This document shows positions 13,724 through 23,306 of a DNA stretch of 64,000 bases, piece after piece. Under the pieces are notes generated by a model. The model was not told where the DNA came from. It ran no database searches and saw nothing but the letters and a program-made list of their open reading frames with translations. The DNA comes from Synechococcus sp. WH 7805 (GTDB taxonomy: Bacteria; Cyanobacteriota; Cyanobacteriia; PCC-6307; Cyanobiaceae), in contig NZ_CH724168.1 of assembly GCF_000153285.1 (NCBI RefSeq), positions 355,823 to 419,822 of the forward strand. The letters are read 5' to 3'. The translations under genes and the position numbers were made by a program. Position 1 is the stretch's first letter; every line of letters starts with the position of its first letter.

Positions 13724-15019
13724 ATGAAGCGCGTTCTGGCCATCATTCTCGGGGGAGGCGCTGGTACGCGCCTCTATCCCCTCACAAAAATGCGGGCGAA
13801 GCCTGCAGTGCCACTCGCCGGTAAATACCGACTGATTGATATTCCAATCAGTAATTGCATCAACTCAAACATCAACAAGATGTATGTGTTGACGCAATTC
13901 AACAGCGCCTCTCTCAACAGGCACCTCAGTCAGACCTACAACCTGTCAGCCGGCTTCGGTCAGGGTTTCGTGGAGGTGCTGGCTGCTCAGCAGACTCCCG
14001 AAAGTCCTTCCTGGTTTGAAGGAACAGCTGATGCTGTTCGCAAATACCAGTGGTTGTTTCAGGAGTGGGACGTTGATGAATATCTGATTCTCTCGGGTGA
14101 TCAGCTGTATCGAATGGACTACAGCCTGTTCATCAATCATCACCGCAGTACCGGAGCGGACCTGACCGTTGCGGCTCTCCCCGTTGACGCCAAGCAAGCT
14201 GAAGCCTTCGGTCTGATGCGCACCGATCAGGATGGTCGCATCTTGGAATTCAGAGAGAAGCCCAAAGGTGATTCCCTCCTGGAAATGGCCGTCGATACCT
14301 CCAGATTCGGACTGAGTGCCGATTCAGCGAAGGAGCGCCCCTACCTTGCCTCGATGGGGATTTACGTCTTCAGCCGCGATACCTTGTTTGATCTGCTTCA
14401 CCAGAATCCAACGCACAAGGATTTCGGCAAAGAAATTATCCCTGAAGCACTAGCACGTGGCGATCGTCTTAAGAGCTACGTCTTTGATGATTATTGGGAA
14501 GACATCGGCACAATCGGCGCGTTCTACGAAGCCAACCTGGCCTTAACGCAGCAACCAACTCCGCCGTTCAGTTTTTACGACGCTGAGTTTCCGATTTACA
14601 CACGACCGCGCTACCTGCCACCCAGCAAACTGGTGGACTCTCAGATCACAGATTCAATCATCGGTGAAGGGTCCATTCTCAAATCCTGCAGCATCCACCA
14701 CTCTGTACTCGGTGTAAGAAGCCGCGTTGAGGACGACGTGGTCTTACAGGATTCCTTGCTGATGGGATCAGATTTCTTCGAGTCTTCCAGCGAACGGGCT
14801 GTACTGAAGGAACGGGGGGGCATCCCGCTGGGTGTCGGAAAGGGAACAACCGTGAAACGGGCGATTCTCGACAAGAACGCGCGCATCGGTAGCAACGTCA
14901 CCATCGTCAACAAGGATCACGTCGAAGAGGCGGATCGCCCTGAGCATGGTTTCTACATTCGAAACGGCATTGTCGTGGTAGTGAAGAACGCGTCCATTCC
15001 AGATGGAACGGTGATCTGA
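13724..15019 (+). CDS. glgC: Glucose-1-phosphate adenylyltransferase
   Basis: Makes ADP-glucose from glucose-1-phosphate and ATP, the committed and allosterically controlled step of glycogen synthesis. The nucleotide-binding start [21 protein letters not shown] is intact, followed by [11 protein letters not shown], the substrate motif EFREKPKGD, and a C-terminal left-handed beta helix ([25 protein letters not shown]). The length of 431 matches the cyanobacterial enzyme, which is activated by 3-phosphoglycerate. A 132-base leader separates it from hemA. Confidence 0.98.
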
Positions 15020-15107
15020 TCACTCATTCCTGACAGAGGTTGTCCAGGTTGCAGCCGAACCCCGGTGGCATGGTCACACTGACGCCAGTGAATGGTTTGA
15101 TCTGACC

Positions 15108-16526
15108 ATGTCCAAGGCACACTTCGGTCTGATCGGTCTCGGTGTGATGGGTGAAAACCTCGTCCTCAATGCCGAGAGCAACGGTTTCTCAAGCGTTGTC
15201 TACAACCGCACCTACTCCAAAACCGAGGAGTTCCTGTCAGGCCGTGGTGCCGGCAAGAACATTCAAGGTGCTACAGACCTGCAGGACTTTGTCAGCAAAC
15301 TGGAGCGTCCTCGTCGCATCCTGATGATGGTGAAGGCGGGTGGTCCGGTTGATGCGGTGATTGAGCAGATCTCTCCATATCTCGAAGAGGGAGATCTCCT
15401 CATCGACGGTGGAAATTCTGAGTATCACGACACCGAGCGTCGTGTTGCTGAGCTGGAGAGCAAGAGTTTCGGTTTCATCGGTATGGGCGTTTCGGGTGGC
15501 GCCAAGGGTGCTCTTGAAGGGCCAAGCATGATGCCTGGAGGCACCAAAGCGTCCTACGACGCCATTGAAAGCCTGGTTCAAAAAATGGCCGCACAGGTGG
15601 AAGACGGCCCCTGCGTGACTTACATCGGTCCCGGTGGCTCAGGTCACTTCGTCAAAACCGTTCATAACGGCATCGAATACGGAATCGAGCAGATTCTCGC
15701 TGAGGGCTACGACCTCATGAAGCGCGTGGGAGGCATGAACGGCACCCAGATGGCCGATGTGTTCGCGCACTGGAACAGCACTGAAGAGCTGTGCTCTTAT
15801 CTCGTTGAGATCACCGAGGTGTGTCTGCGCACGAAAGATCCTGATGACGGATCTGATCTGGTTGAGAAAATCCAGGACAAGGCCGGGCAGAAGGGAACAG
15901 GTCTATGGACCGTGGTGAGTGCTCTCCAAATGGGTGCTTCCGTTCCCACCATCTACGCCTCCTTGAACGGAAGGGTGATGAGTTCCATGAAGGAACAGCG
16001 GATCAAGGCAGAGCCGATTCTCAAGGGCCCAGCGATCAAGCCCTTCGACATGGGCACCCCCGCCGATGGCATGGCTCCACTGATGGATGCGATGGTTCTG
16101 GCCTGCATGGCCAGCTACGCCCAGGGGATGGAGCTGATGCGCATTGCCTCTGCTGAGCACAACTACAACCTGCACATGCCTGCGATCGCTCAGATCTGGA
16201 AGGGTGGCTGCATCATTCGTTCCCGGCTGCTGAAACGCATTCAGGATGCATTCAATGCTGATCCTCAGTTGGCCAACCTGCTGATCGATCCTTGGTTCGC
16301 GGACCAGGTCAACCGCCGACTGCCTGGGCTGGCCAAGGTGGTGGCCGGTGCTGCCGAAGCTGGTATACCCGTTCCCTGCCTAAGCAGCACTCTCGATTAC
16401 ATCAACAGCTACCGCACCTCCCGTTTGCCTCAGAACCTGGTGCAAGCCATGCGCGATTGCTTTGGCTCCCACACCTATGCGCGTGTTGATAAGGACGGAG
16501 TCTTCCACACTGAGTGGTTGAACTGA
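15108..16526 (+). CDS. gnd: 6-phosphogluconate dehydrogenase (NADP+)
   Basis: Oxidative decarboxylation of 6-phosphogluconate to ribulose-5-phosphate, giving NADPH in the dark. The Rossmann motif GLGVMGENLVLN starts at residue 9. IGMGVSGGAKGALEGPS and the catalytic-lysine region GSGHFVKTVHNGIEYG follow, and the C-terminal part ends with SHTYARVDKDGVFH. The 472-residue length is standard. pgl, which makes its substrate, follows after 10 bases. Confidence 0.98.
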   Translation: MSKAHFGLIGLGVMGENLVLNAESNGFSSVVYNRTYSKTEEFLSGRGAGKNIQGATDLQDFVSKLERPRRILMMVKAGGPVDAVIEQISPYLEEGDLLIDGGNSEYHDTERRVAELESKSFGFIGMGVSGGAKGALEGPSMMPGGTKASYDAIESLVQKMAAQVEDGPCVTYIGPGGSGHFVKTVHNGIEYGIEQILAEGYDLMKRVGGMNGTQMADVFAHWNSTEELCSYLVEITEVCLRTKDPDDGSDLVEKIQDKAGQKGTGLWTVVSALQMGASVPTIYASLNGRVMSSMKEQRIKAEPILKGPAIKPFDMGTPADGMAPLMDAMVLACMASYAQGMELMRIASAEHNYNLHMPAIAQIWKGGCIIRSRLLKRIQDAFNADPQLANLLIDPWFADQVNRRLPGLAKVVAGAAEAGIPVPCLSSTLDYINSYRTSRLPQNLVQAMRDCFGSHTYARVDKDGVFHTEWLN

Positions 16527-17826: not shown

Positions 17827-18186
17827 GTGTCCTGTGCGCCGCTTGAAACACTGATCGCAGCAGCGGCTGATCTCTGTCGCAAGCCGTTGCTTCATGCTGT
17901 TGTTTCAGCGGACAGTGCAACCATTGAGGATTACTGCGGCAGGATCGAATGCCGCGATGCCCATGGGATTCGTCTCGTGGACAATGATCTCGAGCTTGAG
18001 CTTTACCGCAGCGGGTCCGATCTCAATCTCACCCTTTCTTGGTTCGATCAGCCCGCACGACCGATCCTTTGGCACGGACAGCACCCGGTCTGGATGAACG
18101 GGGAGACCGGTGAACGGTGCTCAGCCCCGACTGATGGTGCTCCTCTCGAGGCATTGGCACGACGTCTCCGGGCCTTGCTGGCCTGA
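17827..18186 (+). CDS. Conserved-looking hypothetical protein (about 119 aa)
   Basis: Small cytosolic protein with no recognised domain. It starts with a helical stretch (LETLIAAAADLCRKPL) and continues with a beta-rich, acidic middle. I chose the GTG at 17827, five bases after the CIA30 stop. A TTG at 17809 would add six residues and overlap CIA30. It ends the glgC-gnd-pgl run and converges on the RNase II gene with an 8-base gap. Confidence 0.65.
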   Translation: MSCAPLETLIAAAADLCRKPLLHAVVSADSATIEDYCGRIECRDAHGIRLVDNDLELELYRSGSDLNLTLSWFDQPARPILWHGQHPVWMNGETGERCSAPTDGAPLEALARRLRALLA

Positions 18187-18194
18187 TTCTGTGT

Positions 18195-20252
18195 TCAGAC
18201 AGTCCCGTTGACGTCCGCGACCAGATGCAACTGATCGCGGATGGAATCAACTCCTGCCACCTTCAGCACCAACGCATCACCGGGTTCACAGCCAGTCGGA
18301 CAGCTTGCAGCGATATCAAGAGCCAGGTCTTCGATACGCACCAGTCCCAAACGATCCTGGGGACGCAACCAGCGCAGAAAATCAACCGGCCAGCGCTCAC
18401 TGGAGTGATGCTCGAACCAAACCTGTTGCCAGTGTCGTTGATCTTCGCGGGTCACGGCGATTCCCTCGCGAACCGCTGTTTCTATCTGTTGGAGAAGAGT
18501 CTGCAATGACTCCGTATCCAGAGGGTCGTCATGTCCATCTGGTGAGAGCATGGCGGCGAACTGCCGCTGCACCACCAGATCGCCATAGCGTCTGATCGGT
18601 GATGTGGCCTGGGTATAGGCAGGAACACCAAGGCTGAAATGAGCTGCCGGTGTGGTTCCCATCAATCCACGACTGAGGCAGCGCTTGATGGCGGCGAACC
18701 GAACGGCACCGTCAGCAAGTTCCTCGAGTTGAGCCGCCGATGGAAGCTCTGCAGGCAGCTGACTTCGGAAAGGGAGCGCCAATGCATTCTCAATGCCCTT
18801 TGTGGCGGCAACGGTGCCGCAAAGAATCATGGCTTCGGCGACCATCTCTCGGGACGGGCTGGGCTCGGTGATTTCAACGGTTGGCTGCCCATCGCGACAG
18901 CGAATCCGACCTTCCGGTAGATCCATCAACAACGCTCCGCGTTCGAGGCGCCAACGACGTCTGGTGGCCAGCAGTGCATGAAGATTGGAGAGATCGGCTT
19001 CTTCCGGTGGCGCGAAATCAATCAATTCGTCTGCATCCTCGTAGGTGAGTCGGTAACGAGGGGTCACCCAGCTACGACACATCCCGCTCGTTTTGACGTC
19101 TCCCGTGTGATCAAGATCCACCCAAGTGCTCCAGGCAGCGTTTCGCTGACCTGCTTTGAGGCTGAACACCTCGGTTGACAGGTTCGAGGGGAACATCGGC
19201 AAGATTCCCCTGGCCAGGTACAAACTGCTCCCCCTGCGGCGAGCTTCGAGATCCAGAGGAGAGCCGGTTGTGATCAGACGACCAGGATCTGCGATGTGAA
19301 TCCAAATCCGGAGTTGGTCATCAGCCAGTCGCTCAAGCCCCAGGGCATCGTCAATATCCCTGGTTTCGGCATCGTCGATGGTGACGCAAGTCTGATGGGT
19401 CAGATCAATGCGCTCTGAATCCCCGGGGTGATCGTCCAGGCAGCCATTGAGCACACGCTCGGCTTCAGCGATGAGCTCGGCGCTGAAGCCGTTGGTCCAG
19501 GCCGTTCCCGCGATCGAGGAGAGCTGGTGAGGATCGAGTTGGCCAAGGGTCACGAGGCGCTCGCGAACGTCCCCCCGGTTCTGATCCAGGCGCAAACTCG
19601 TCAAAGACTGACGAAGCTCTGTCGACAGGTCGTCCAGGTTGATGCTTCCAGCGGAGAAACGGATGAGCTGTTCAATCCACTCCTTGTGAAGTGGATCCAG
19701 CTCCTTGTCTCCTTCACCCTGTTTGCTGAGGAAGGCCATCCAGCGCTTGAACCGGATCTGCGCAAGGTGTTGTCGCCGGCGATCGTGACGTCGGTTTCGA
19801 ATTTCTTGAAGCGACCGTGGGCAAATCCGCTCTTGCTTGATTCGAAATAAATCTTGCTCTTCAGCCTTTAGCGCTAACCAGGTTGCTGCGCAGTGCAGTG
19901 CATCACTGGTTCCGTAAACAAGATCAGCGAATTCCTCAAGCTCAGAAGTCTCACCTGATTCAGCAAGTAAGACCCATGCCTGGCCCCAGTCGCGACGCTT
20001 GAGACTTGCGAGTGCTAGGTCTTTCTCGGTGAATTCCCATGGAAAAGCCCCCAGTCTTCCTGCCACATCAGAGGAGGAAGCATTGGAGGCAATCAGAGTG
20101 ATCTGTCGGGCCGGGAGCAGCTGCTCTTTGGCTTTGAAACCCACGCTCAAGCGACGCTTGCTGCCCTGTACAGAGAGAACAACAGCGAGTTGAGGAGATT
20201 TCAGTTCGCTGATCCCGACGAGGTCACCGGGTTGGAAGTTGGCGGTCGCCAG
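18195..20252 (-). CDS. rnb: RNase II/R family exoribonuclease; start codon unusual
   Basis: Processive 3'-to-5' exoribonuclease for mRNA and structured RNA decay. The catalytic aspartate cluster TIDDAETRDIDDAL lies in the RNB domain, with HIADPGR, AYTQATSPIRRYGDL and a short S1-like C-terminus. The first ATG/GTG/TTG in frame is the TTG at 20150, but the reading upstream is clearly coding (FQPGDLVGI, PQLAVVLSVQGSKRRLS) and matches the usual N-terminal barrel. No canonical start occurs between it and the rpsR stop, which is in the same frame. CTG at 20252-20250, seven bases after GAGGG, is the best candidate and is used here. The start is inferred; the rest is secure. Confidence 0.9.
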   Translation of the reverse strand: MATANFQPGDLVGISELKSPQLAVVLSVQGSKRRLSVGFKAKEQLLPARQITLIASNASSSDVAGRLGAFPWEFTEKDLALASLKRRDWGQAWVLLAESGETSELEEFADLVYGTSDALHCAATWLALKAEEQDLFRIKQERICPRSLQEIRNRRHDRRRQHLAQIRFKRWMAFLSKQGEGDKELDPLHKEWIEQLIRFSAGSINLDDLSTELRQSLTSLRLDQNRGDVRERLVTLGQLDPHQLSSIAGTAWTNGFSAELIAEAERVLNGCLDDHPGDSERIDLTHQTCVTIDDAETRDIDDALGLERLADDQLRIWIHIADPGRLITTGSPLDLEARRRGSSLYLARGILPMFPSNLSTEVFSLKAGQRNAAWSTWVDLDHTGDVKTSGMCRSWVTPRYRLTYEDADELIDFAPPEEADLSNLHALLATRRRWRLERGALLMDLPEGRIRCRDGQPTVEITEPSPSREMVAEAMILCGTVAATKGIENALALPFRSQLPAELPSAAQLEELADGAVRFAAIKRCLSRGLMGTTPAAHFSLGVPAYTQATSPIRRYGDLVVQRQFAAMLSPDGHDDPLDTESLQTLLQQIETAVREGIAVTREDQRHWQQVWFEHHSSERWPVDFLRWLRPQDRLGLVRIEDLALDIAASCPTGCEPGDALVLKVAGVDSIRDQLHLVADVNGTV

Positions 20253-20255
20253 AAA

Positions 20256-20477
20256 TCAGCCCTCGGGATTCACAAATGGCAGAAGAGCCACGATGCGAGC
20301 ACGTTTCACTGCATTGGTGAGGTCACGTTGCTGTTTTGCTGTGAGACCGGTCAGACGGCGGGGCAGAATCTTGCCGCGCTCTGTGATGAATTTCTTGAGC
20401 AGATCCACATCTTTGTAATCGATGGGATCACCGGGCTTGATCGGTGAAAGACGCTTCTTGAAAAAGGAGCTGGACAT
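20256..20477 (-). CDS. rpsR: 30S ribosomal protein S18
   Basis: Small-subunit protein of the platform near the mRNA exit. The 73-residue sequence carries the family core [19 protein letters not shown] and [16 protein letters not shown], then the basic [13 protein letters not shown]. It lies 50 bases downstream of rpmG, the common cyanobacterial pair. Its TGA is in frame with the RNase II reading that begins right after it. Confidence 0.98.
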
Positions 20478-20527
20478 TGGAATGGATTTGGAGGCGAAGT
20501 TGGTACAGAAATTTCAGATTCGAAAGA

Positions 20528-20722
20528 TCACTTGATCTCTTTGTGAATCGTCATTTTGTTGTCATGAGGACAAAACTTCTTGATCTCCAACCGCTCGGTG
20601 GTGTTCCGACGGTTTTTTTCAGTGGTGTATCGAGACACACCCTGGGAACGTTTTTCGGTGCTGGACCGGCATTCGGTGCACTCAAGAGTGACAACGATCC
20701 GGACGCCCTTGTTCTTGGCCAT
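20528..20722 (-). CDS. rpmG: 50S ribosomal protein L33
   Basis: The 64-residue protein starts at [18 protein letters not shown]; a longer upstream frame is not needed. Two CxxC-like pairs are expected for zinc-type L33: CTEC is present near residue 15, but the second site has only one cysteine (KFCPHDNK), so zinc binding may be lost or partial. First gene of rpmG-rpsR-rnb. Divergent from pheT. Confidence 0.97.
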
Positions 20723-20849
20723 AAGGACGTTACGCCGCGCTTGCGAAGCGAGTGACAAACGACAACTCTACAGGGCGGCCATTCACTGATGGATCACCTT
20801 CTCAGCACGAAAGAGTTCGTAGGATCCCCCACCGACGACACGTTTCCCC

Positions 20850-23306
20850 ATGCGGGTTTCCCTCTCCTGGCTGAAGGATCTGGTTCAGGTGAATGAACCT
20901 GCCCTTGAGCTGGGGGATCGGCTGTCCATGGCGGGATTTGAGGTGGAGGAGCTTGAGGATCTCAGCCTCTTTGCGCAAGGCGTGGTTGTCGGTCACGTGC
21001 TGGAGAAGAACAAACATCCCAATGCCGACAAGTTGAGTGTTTGTTCGGTGGACGTGGGGGCTGAATCTCCACTTCAGATCGTTTGCGGGGCCTCCAATGT
21101 GCGCGCAGGGATTCATGTGCCGGTGGCCATGGTCGGTGCCATCCTTCCGGCTGTGAATCTGACCATCAAGGCCGGTGAGCTGAGAGGGGTGAGCAGCCAG
21201 GGAATGATCTGTTCCCTCGCAGAGCTTGGGCAAACCAGTGATGTTGACGGAATTGCCATCCTCGAGGAACTCGTCCCTGAGGTTCCAGCACCGGGTGCAT
21301 CGATCGCCCCAGTGCTTGGGCTCGACGACACCGTTCTTGAACTGGCCATCACAGCGAATCGACCCGATGGACTGTCAATGACGGGCATCGCCCGTGAAGT
21401 CGCTGCCCTCACAGGCGCTGCACTGTCTCTTCCTGAGACATCAGCACCCACAACAGTTGATGCACTGAATCCCAGCCCACCATCGGCCGAAGCCATGCAA
21501 ACAGGTGGCATTTATGCCGTCACTGAGGTTAAGCAACTCGATGGCTCAAGCTGCTCCCCTCAATGGATTCAGCAGCGTCTTCAACGCGCTGGTGTGAAGC
21601 CGGTGAATGCGGTAGTGGATATCGGCAATCTGGTGATGCTTGAACAGGGTCAGCCTCTGCATGCATTCGACGCTGATGCTCTCGAGTCCATCTGCGGACA
21701 ACCCATCACAGCATCCGATTTCGGCCTGCGTCAGGCTCGCGAGAAAGAAGCGTTCCGTGGTTTGGATGGTCGGGATTTGTCCCTGGATTCCCGTGTGCAG
21801 GTGGTGACGTGCTGCGATCGAGCTGTTGCGATTGCTGGCGTGATGGGCAGTGAGGAGAGCGGGGTCACCGATCAAACACGGCGCATCTGGTTGGAATCTG
21901 CTCTCTTCACTCCGTCCTCCGTGCGCATCAGTAGCCGAACTACGGGACAACGCACTGATTCCAGCAGTCGTTATGAGAAAGGGGTGCCACGGGAAATCAC
22001 TCTGTTGGCTGCCGGCCGCGCTCTTTCACTCCTGGAATCGTTACTGGGAGCCGAAATCGGACGCACGTGGCAGTGTGCGTCCGAGCCAGGTCCAGCGCCC
22101 GTAGTTGGTCTACGTCGGAGCGCTCTGCATCAGTTATTAGGACCACTGGCGCCTACAGATCCTGATTCAGCGGCTCAGGATCTGAGTGATGGTCAAGTTG
22201 AAGTATGCCTGAAGTCTCTTGGCTGCTCGCTGACGTCAACAGAGGACGGATGGGATGTGGTTGTCCCTCCGTCGCGTCGCCTTGACCTCCTGCGTGAAGT
22301 TGACCTCATCGAAGAGGTGGCCCGCCTTGTTGGATTTGATCGTTTTGAATCCCACCTGCCCGATCCTCTAAGCCCAGGCCGGCTTTCTCTAGGTCAACAG
22401 GCTGAACGTCGCCTGCGTCAGCGTTTGTGTTCGTTCGGCCTTCAGGAGGTCACAACGCTCTCGCTGACTCGAGCGGATGACACAGATGAGGCCAGGATTG
22501 CCATCAGCAACCCCCTCCTCGCCGAAACAAGTCACCTGCGTACGGCCCTCTGGCAGGAGCATCTGGAAATCTGCCAGCGCAATCTGCAATCGTCCCAACC
22601 CGGTTGTTGGCTGTTTGAGATCGGCAACGTGTTCTTCCCCGATGCCAGCGGGGTTCGCCAGACATCCCGCCTCGGTGGTGTGATCTGTGGTGAGCGACGG
22701 CTCTCCCGGTGGCTCAACAGTGGCAAACCTTCGCCTCTGAGTTACTACGAAGCACGTGGGCTGCTCACGTCTCTCTTTGCCTCCCTGGGACTTGAGAGCA
22801 TGGATCGTCGTCTCGTAGACGACGATCGTCTCCATCCAGGCCGTGCCGCCACGGTTGTCGTGGAAGGAAAACCTCTGGGATGTTTCGGGCAGCTGCACCC
22901 ATCGCTTTGCGAACACTTCGAGTTGCCATCGGAGACCTACCTCTTTGATTTCGATATGGCACTTCTTCTCAGTGCCGCCACCCGAAGCAACCGCTGGACC
23001 CCACAGTTCAAGCCTTTTTCCACCCTTCCAGCGTCGGAGCGAGATCTGGCAATGGTGGTTTCCAAATCCCTCCCGTCCGCTGATCTGTTGCAGGCCATCC
23101 GCAAGGCTGGCAAACCCTTACTGGAGTCGGTCGAACTCATTGATCGCTTTGAGGCCAAGCAGTTGGGTGACGACCGTTGCAGTCAGGCGTTCCGGCTGCG
23201 CTACCGCGGCAAGGACAGCACTCTCACCGATGATCAGATACAGCCGGTGCATGAGAAGGTGCGTCAGGCCCTGATCAAGCAGTTCGAGGTGGAACTGCGG
23301 AGCTGA
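20850..23306 (+). CDS. pheT: Phenylalanyl-tRNA synthetase beta chain
   Basis: Large subunit of the heterotetrameric enzyme that charges tRNA(Phe). Domain order is complete over 818 residues: MRVSLSWLKDLV start, EMAP/tRNA-binding domain (about 40-150, HPNADKLSVCSVDVG), B3/B4 editing domain (TGQRTDSSSRYEKGV), B5 domain (LIEEVARLVGFDRF), the catalytic-like core, and the FDX-ACB anticodon domain at the end (FSTLPASERDLAMVV). pheS is not in the window. The 3' end overlaps the opposite-strand methyltransferase by 32 bases. Confidence 0.98.
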   Translation: MRVSLSWLKDLVQVNEPALELGDRLSMAGFEVEELEDLSLFAQGVVVGHVLEKNKHPNADKLSVCSVDVGAESPLQIVCGASNVRAGIHVPVAMVGAILPAVNLTIKAGELRGVSSQGMICSLAELGQTSDVDGIAILEELVPEVPAPGASIAPVLGLDDTVLELAITANRPDGLSMTGIAREVAALTGAALSLPETSAPTTVDALNPSPPSAEAMQTGGIYAVTEVKQLDGSSCSPQWIQQRLQRAGVKPVNAVVDIGNLVMLEQGQPLHAFDADALESICGQPITASDFGLRQAREKEAFRGLDGRDLSLDSRVQVVTCCDRAVAIAGVMGSEESGVTDQTRRIWLESALFTPSSVRISSRTTGQRTDSSSRYEKGVPREITLLAAGRALSLLESLLGAEIGRTWQCASEPGPAPVVGLRRSALHQLLGPLAPTDPDSAAQDLSDGQVEVCLKSLGCSLTSTEDGWDVVVPPSRRLDLLREVDLIEEVARLVGFDRFESHLPDPLSPGRLSLGQQAERRLRQRLCSFGLQEVTTLSLTRADDTDEARIAISNPLLAETSHLRTALWQEHLEICQRNLQSSQPGCWLFEIGNVFFPDASGVRQTSRLGGVICGERRLSRWLNSGKPSPLSYYEARGLLTSLFASLGLESMDRRLVDDDRLHPGRAATVVVEGKPLGCFGQLHPSLCEHFELPSETYLFDFDMALLLSAATRSNRWTPQFKPFSTLPASERDLAMVVSKSLPSADLLQAIRKAGKPLLESVELIDRFEAKQLGDDRCSQAFRLRYRGKDSTLTDDQIQPVHEKVRQALIKQFEVELRS

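Follow-up and report, generated by a model that had tools for sequence, protein, structure and literature searches.

A conserved CTG codon as the probable start of the RNase II gene rnb behind rpsR in Synechococcus sp. WH 7805 and its relatives

Weak start codons and the rnb locus

Non-canonical start codons are known to limit the expression of bacterial genes of RNA and translation metabolism. For example, infC of E. coli, which encodes IF3, starts with AUU, and pcnB of E. coli, likewise a gene of RNA metabolism, is also limited by an AUU start. CUG is a weaker choice than the usual codons: in binding of the initiator tRNA, it stands behind AUG, GUG, and UUG (PMC11497404). Annotated CUG starts amount to 20 genes in 69 model genomes, or 0.024% (PMC9845219), and 2 switches to CUG were counted among 61,358 ancestral AUG starts (PMC5622118). 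Translational coupling drops steeply with distance (PMC10666635), and the coupled pairs galT/galK and rplK/rplA have a stop-to-start spacing of +3 (PMC12548453). In cyanobacteria, the Rnb protein of Synechocystis PCC 6803 acts as RNase II and was reported to be essential (PMC3293843); the main text of that paper does not mention rpsR, rps18, an operon, or a start codon.

In this study, we believe that the rnb gene of Synechococcus sp. WH 7805 starts with CTG. Like infC and pcnB, it would be a gene of RNA metabolism limited by a non-canonical start, but it uses CUG, encodes an exoribonuclease directly behind rpsR, and has no known autocontrol. Its stop-to-start distance of +3 nt is that of galT/galK and rplK/rplA, one of which also has a ribosomal protein upstream, whereas the downstream start of rnb is CUG and coupling is inferred here. 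The likeness to Rnb of Synechocystis PCC 6803 lies at the family level, both being cyanobacterial RNB-family RNases. Among literature titles and abstracts, subscription papers and preprints aside, we found no report of a CUG start of a cyanobacterial RNase II. While non-canonical starts that limit expression are known from infC, the literature searched had no example of so widely held a CUG in the gene of a housekeeping RNase. A CUG retained over a large part of a family would be a natural setting in which to test how bacteria use such a weak start, and for what reason.

The window, which is the whole stretch of 64,000 nucleotides that was analyzed, carries the following features at this locus:

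20528..20722, minus strand: rpmG, ribosomal protein L33 (Pfam PF00471 and NCBIfam L33 models), first gene of the cluster
20256..20477, minus strand: rpsR, ribosomal protein S18 (Pfam PF01084, TIGR00165), with the stop TGA at 20258-20256
20260..20264, minus strand: GAGGG, Shine-Dalgarno-like, inside the last two sense codons of rpsR (GAG GGC), 7 nt upstream of the CTG
20250..20252, minus strand: CTG, proposed start codon of rnb, 3 nt past the rpsR stop and conserved in relatives
18195..20252, minus strand: rnb, RNase II-family exoribonuclease (PF00773), 685 aa counted from the CTG; the coordinates include the stop
20148..20150, minus strand: TTG, codon 35 from the CTG, the first canonical start codon in the rnb frame, rejected as start

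The divergent neighbor of rpmG is pheT, which encodes the phenylalanyl-tRNA synthetase beta chain (20850-23306, plus strand). The rpsR TGA is followed in frame by TTT (20255-20253), CTG, and GCG ACC GCC AAC TTC CAA; the rnb frame continues with CCC GGT GAC CTC GTC GGG, which contains the codons of the conserved GDLVG motif, and ends at the stop at 18195. A sequence-only reading of this DNA had stated that the rnb frame runs back in phase to the rpsR TGA, that ATG, GTG, and TTG are all absent between this TGA and the TTG at 20150, and that GAGGG lies seven bases ahead of the CTG, and direct reading of every codon confirmed all three points. It had also described the TTG at 20150 as the only canonical codon of the frame; this TTG is indeed the first one, but a GTG lies two codons past it (locus L213). 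The first ATC of the frame is downstream of the GDLVG motif.

The rnb frame was compared with the other long frames of the window, for which 40 stop-to-stop frames of at least 600 nt with a mutual overlap below 150 nt were taken. Among these 40 frames, rnb had the longest run before the first ATG, GTG, or TTG (35 codons), and this run had the top coding score (3.2; runner-up 2.74). The claim that the 34 codons ahead of the TTG are coding is borne out by this score and by protein-like conservation in relatives. The scan for further CTG-start genes covered the 64-kb window, and its second-longest pre-start run, at 15015-16523 on the plus strand, was discarded, being 6-phosphogluconate dehydrogenase with an evident ATG.

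The product of rnb is, judged from its sequence, an RNB-family RNase II-type exoribonuclease with predicted 3'-5' activity. The RNB catalytic domain matched PF00773 with an E value of 7.4e-72 and 242.8 bits, against a cut-off of 29.3, and the NCBIfam models of RNase II and RNase R matched below their cut-offs. Apart from RNB, the Pfam search returned a sub-threshold match to the RNase II winged helix and nothing else; the cold-shock and S1 matches that are given for Zam were absent. D293, D294, D301, and D302 (numbered from the CTG) were invariant in 36 proteins, while D299 was invariant in 12 proteins and fell below 90% in the 36. We take this cluster to correspond to the catalytic Asp residues of E. 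coli RNase II. The best PDB relative was the Deinococcus RNase II-family protein 2r7d, followed by RNase R, Dis3L2, Rrp44, and E. coli RNase II.

The CTG codon across relatives

Loci from three sources were pooled: those of a family search, in which 233 of 300 genomes matched and the loci among the matches listed were used, 60 places that we selected, and 80 of 114 named relatives kept in a separate scan, including Synechococcus WH7803 (L104). The junction counts were made on 182 loci (L001-L182), of which 180 had a recognized rpsR-rnb junction, 137 of them distinct. The two others were L114, read by eye as a CTG at +4 at a contig edge, and L141, which had no call. Within the genus, 29 of 31 genomes matched the first 327 residues of rnb; 20 had rnb in phase with rpsR and a CTG 3 bases past the stop, and 9 had the rnb frame shifted by one and a CTG 4 bases past the stop.

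The first possible start past the rpsR stop was CTG in 81, TTG in 51, GTG in 5, and ATG in 0 of the 137 distinct junctions, which come from related genomes, so these counts are not independent events; a CTG overlapping the rpsR stop (CTGA, spacing -4) was left out. The sequence-only reading had proposed to look for a conserved CTG or ATG at this place, and it is the CTG that is found. In 60 of the 137 junctions, no ATG, GTG, or TTG occurred from the preceding in-frame stop to the GD motif, and all 60 had the CTG, with rnb in phase with rpsR in 24, at +1 in 27, and at +2 in 9. In a further 12 CTG junctions, canonical codons occurred only upstream, where the open frame reaches into rpsR, and another 9 had one downstream of the CTG (ATG in one, L079), so the CTG start is not forced in these two groups.

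The distance from the CTG to the GD motif was 8 codons in 77 of the 81 CTG junctions, whereas its distance to the rpsR stop was 2-10 nt in 80 of them and 85 nt in L093, and all three frames occurred. The CTG is thus fixed relative to the protein and variable relative to rpsR, and it behaves as a start codon should. The 104 of the 137 genes with at least 550 residues past the GD motif were placed on a FastTree tree, which is unrooted with local support only, and the change counts on it are minimum numbers on one tree. On this tree, the CTG rows needed at least 5 frame changes and at least 6 spacing changes.

Codon usage separated this position from ordinary leucine codons. In the 46 full-length genes of the group without canonical codons, the start column was CTG in 46 of 46 and was the sole always-CTG column of 24 invariant Leu columns; in the other 23, the CTG fraction had a mean of 0.44 and a maximum of 0.76. 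Because this set excludes TTG at the start by definition, all 104 full-length genes make the fairer test. Their start codon was CTG in 65 and TTG in 39, and one change on the tree suffices for this distribution, whereas 25 invariant downstream Leu columns needed 12-37 codon changes and 3-17 first-base changes.

Alanine, glycine, serine, threonine, and valine are the type of second residue expected after removal of the initiator Met. In the 65 CTG rows, residue 2 was Ala in 50, Gly in 6, Ser in 6, Thr in 2, and Val in 1. Compared with WH7803, the stretch ahead of the TTG had a pS of 0.58 and a pN of 0.07. The pN of this stretch ranged from 0.04 to 0.29 over eight pairs, and in the farther pairs it was mostly similar to that of the rest of the gene. 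The N-terminal peptide predicted from the CUG in Synechococcus WH7803 (L104/L005, same arrangement) is AIADFQPGDLVGVSDLK.

These results suggest that a start other than ATG, GTG, or TTG is conserved over wide divergence, among Synechococcus relatives from marine and fresh water, and we consider the CTG at 20252-20250 to be the start of rnb with a probability of roughly 0.9. This agrees with one of the two alternatives offered by the sequence-only reading, as the CTG is conserved and keeps its place in the protein whatever the frame between rpsR and rnb. In frame-2 relatives, an overlapping CTGA at the rpsR stop could serve as the start instead of the downstream CTG; among 13 frame-2 junctions that also have the downstream CTG, 12 had it. 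A gene finder restricted to ATG, GTG, and TTG would cut 34 residues from the rnb product here.

Possible role of the weak start

We propose that rnb would be translated from an rpmG-rpsR-rnb message, with fMet placed by the initiator tRNA at the CUG at 20252-20250. The GAGGG is S18 coding sequence that may double as a Shine-Dalgarno sequence and would recruit new subunits, while ribosomes that terminate on rpsR three bases upstream would probably supply or ease initiation on rnb by translational coupling. The weak CUG would keep the output of RNase II low on a message that must yield much S18; the need for much S18 and less RNase, from which the use of a weak start follows, is itself inferred. 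Given the CTG start, we lean toward this account of one message for the three genes, coupled translation, low output, and selection for a weak start, with a confidence somewhat above even.

The short distance between the two genes, +3 nt in the window and similarly small in nearly all CTG junctions, is consistent with coupling. The last six bases ahead of the rpsR stop were GAGGGY or GAAGGY in 137 of 137 distinct junctions, and the Glu-Gly end of S18 also occurred in nine distant cyanobacterial loci. Because S18 ends with Glu-Gly in both groups, the Shine-Dalgarno-like sequence appears older than the shrinkage of the spacer and was probably present before it. The 27 frame-0 sequences had a small helix in common over the Shine-Dalgarno region (energy -5.75). 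A sigma-70-like site was absent from 17900-21000, in a weak scan with a chance expectation of just 0.8.

The strongest alternative disputes the purpose rather than the start: expression from the CTG may simply suffice, and the gene order and the Shine-Dalgarno-like motif may have been inherited as the spacer shrank. A TTG clade does exist, in which the stronger start is tolerated and part of which is similarly compact, as would be expected if the choice of start had no regulatory meaning. However, CTG becomes TTG by a single transition, yet one change suffices for the start codon on the 104-gene tree, while the 25 invariant Leu columns changed at the first base many times over, and ATG was never the first start in any junction. 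RNA structure was rejected as the cause of the fixed C of the CTG. In the window, 20190-20310 folded somewhat more stably than shuffled sequences (z of -1.74, with 12 of 200 shuffles at least as good), and the CTG was mostly paired. In the 81 relatives, the mean unpaired probability of the CTG was close to 0.5 whatever the frame class, and the consensus fold of the alignment had no base pairs over the CTG. Because the relatives have no common pairs over the CTG, its fixed C is unexplained by pairing. The single start change on the tree and the lack of ATG are easier to reconcile with selection against a stronger start than with indifference. Together with the long retention of CUG in this tight arrangement, they point to selection for low RNase II output. 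We regard the account without a purpose as possible but clearly the less probable one.

A link between RNase levels and ribosome synthesis, as raised in the sequence-only reading, is plausible from the gene order. By analogy with the AUU of infC, the CUG start might even be a sensor, through which RNase II output follows the state of the translation apparatus and RNA decay is tied to ribosome synthesis, since starting at CUG would hinge on the fidelity of the initiation factors and on the stream of ribosomes coming off rpsR. We hold this extension to be doubtful. If it were true, a CUG selected for its weakness would be held across much of a bacterial family.

Other start sites and divergent loci

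The other alternative of the sequence-only reading was that some ribosomes read through the rpsR TGA to give an S18-RNase II fusion, in which the CTG would be an internal Leu codon. In its favor, rpsR and rnb lie in one continuous frame in the window, and they do so too in relatives of identical spacing (27 junctions with the CTG at +3). The downstream frame is, however, not in phase throughout the group: other relatives retain the CTG with an rnb frame that is offset from that of rpsR by +1 or +2, and at three junctions rpsR ends in TAA, followed by CTG in one (L072) and TTG in two. Moreover, the codon between TGA and CTG in the 27 junctions varies (TCC 11, TTT 8, TTC 6, TCT 1, GTC 1) and alternates among Ser, Phe, and Val codons, and an internal Leu would drift between Leu codons like the other Leu columns. 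Because the distance from rpsR to the CTG varies and all three frames occur, readthrough is not the general route, and we consider the fusion very improbable.

It is equally improbable that translation starts at the TTG at 20150 and that the conserved stretch upstream is untranslated or an accidental open frame. This TTG is the first ATG, GTG, or TTG in the frame, but its column in the 46 genes was TTG in just 11, with GTG in 2, CTG in 13, CTC in 7, TTA in 4, CTT in 4, ATT in 4, and GTC in 1, and the codons upstream of it evolve as protein. The AlphaFold2 model (36 sequences) had a mean pLDDT of 91.2 and a pTM of 0.76, with strands at residues 11-14, 21-29, 32-37, 42-47, and 51-55. These five consecutive N-terminal strands are read as a small barrel in the model. 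Residue 35 lies inside the third strand, so the codons upstream of the TTG encode strands one and two and a portion of strand three in this confident model. The TTG was rejected as a start, with an unconserved column and a position that would cut the predicted five-strand N-terminus (residues 11 to 55). A sequencing error in the window was excluded, because many independent genomes have the same arrangement. A canonical ATG in homologues, which the sequence-only reading had named as a refutation, was looked for and was the first start in none of the junctions.

Some loci depart from the common pattern. L093 (G052) keeps the CTG despite its 85-nt spacer from rpsR, which is ill-suited to tight coupling. 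Fifteen divergent family loci, of which L183-L187 belong to one genus and L221 coincides with L102, one of the 137, were read separately and had TTG in nine, GTG in three, a CTG at +8 in one (L194), and neither in two. In the last two, L190 (G284) and L195 (G054), none of ATG, GTG, TTG, and CTG occurred between the rpsR stop and the conserved motif, so other non-canonical starts may exist. The candidates left in these two loci are ATC codons or a CTGA in which CTG overlaps the stop, and L190 has a run of nine A.

Among 16 distant cyanobacterial loci (L223-L238), seven were clean, six had no S18 match in the stretch, and L234-L236 were not clean. The seven clean loci (L223, L226, L227, L230, L231, L233, and L237) had an upstream S18, and L33 also matched within the stretch. 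Their spacer was roughly 80-210 nt past rpsR, and their starts were ATG in four and GTG in three, at or close to M/V-EKGTLVEF. Compared with them, most members of the family of the window have a short spacer, and in most the weak start of the protein lies some codons further upstream. In L227, L230, and L237, a CTG lies immediately ahead of the GTG taken as the start, and a CTG start there is possible.

A last group of 16 relatives (L196-L212 minus the fragment L203), with genomes of 1.7-2.2 Mb, has an RNase of about 400-470 residues without the first ~250 residues, that is, the N-terminal strands and the helical region. An ATG lies near the start of this shortened RNase in 9 of the 16.
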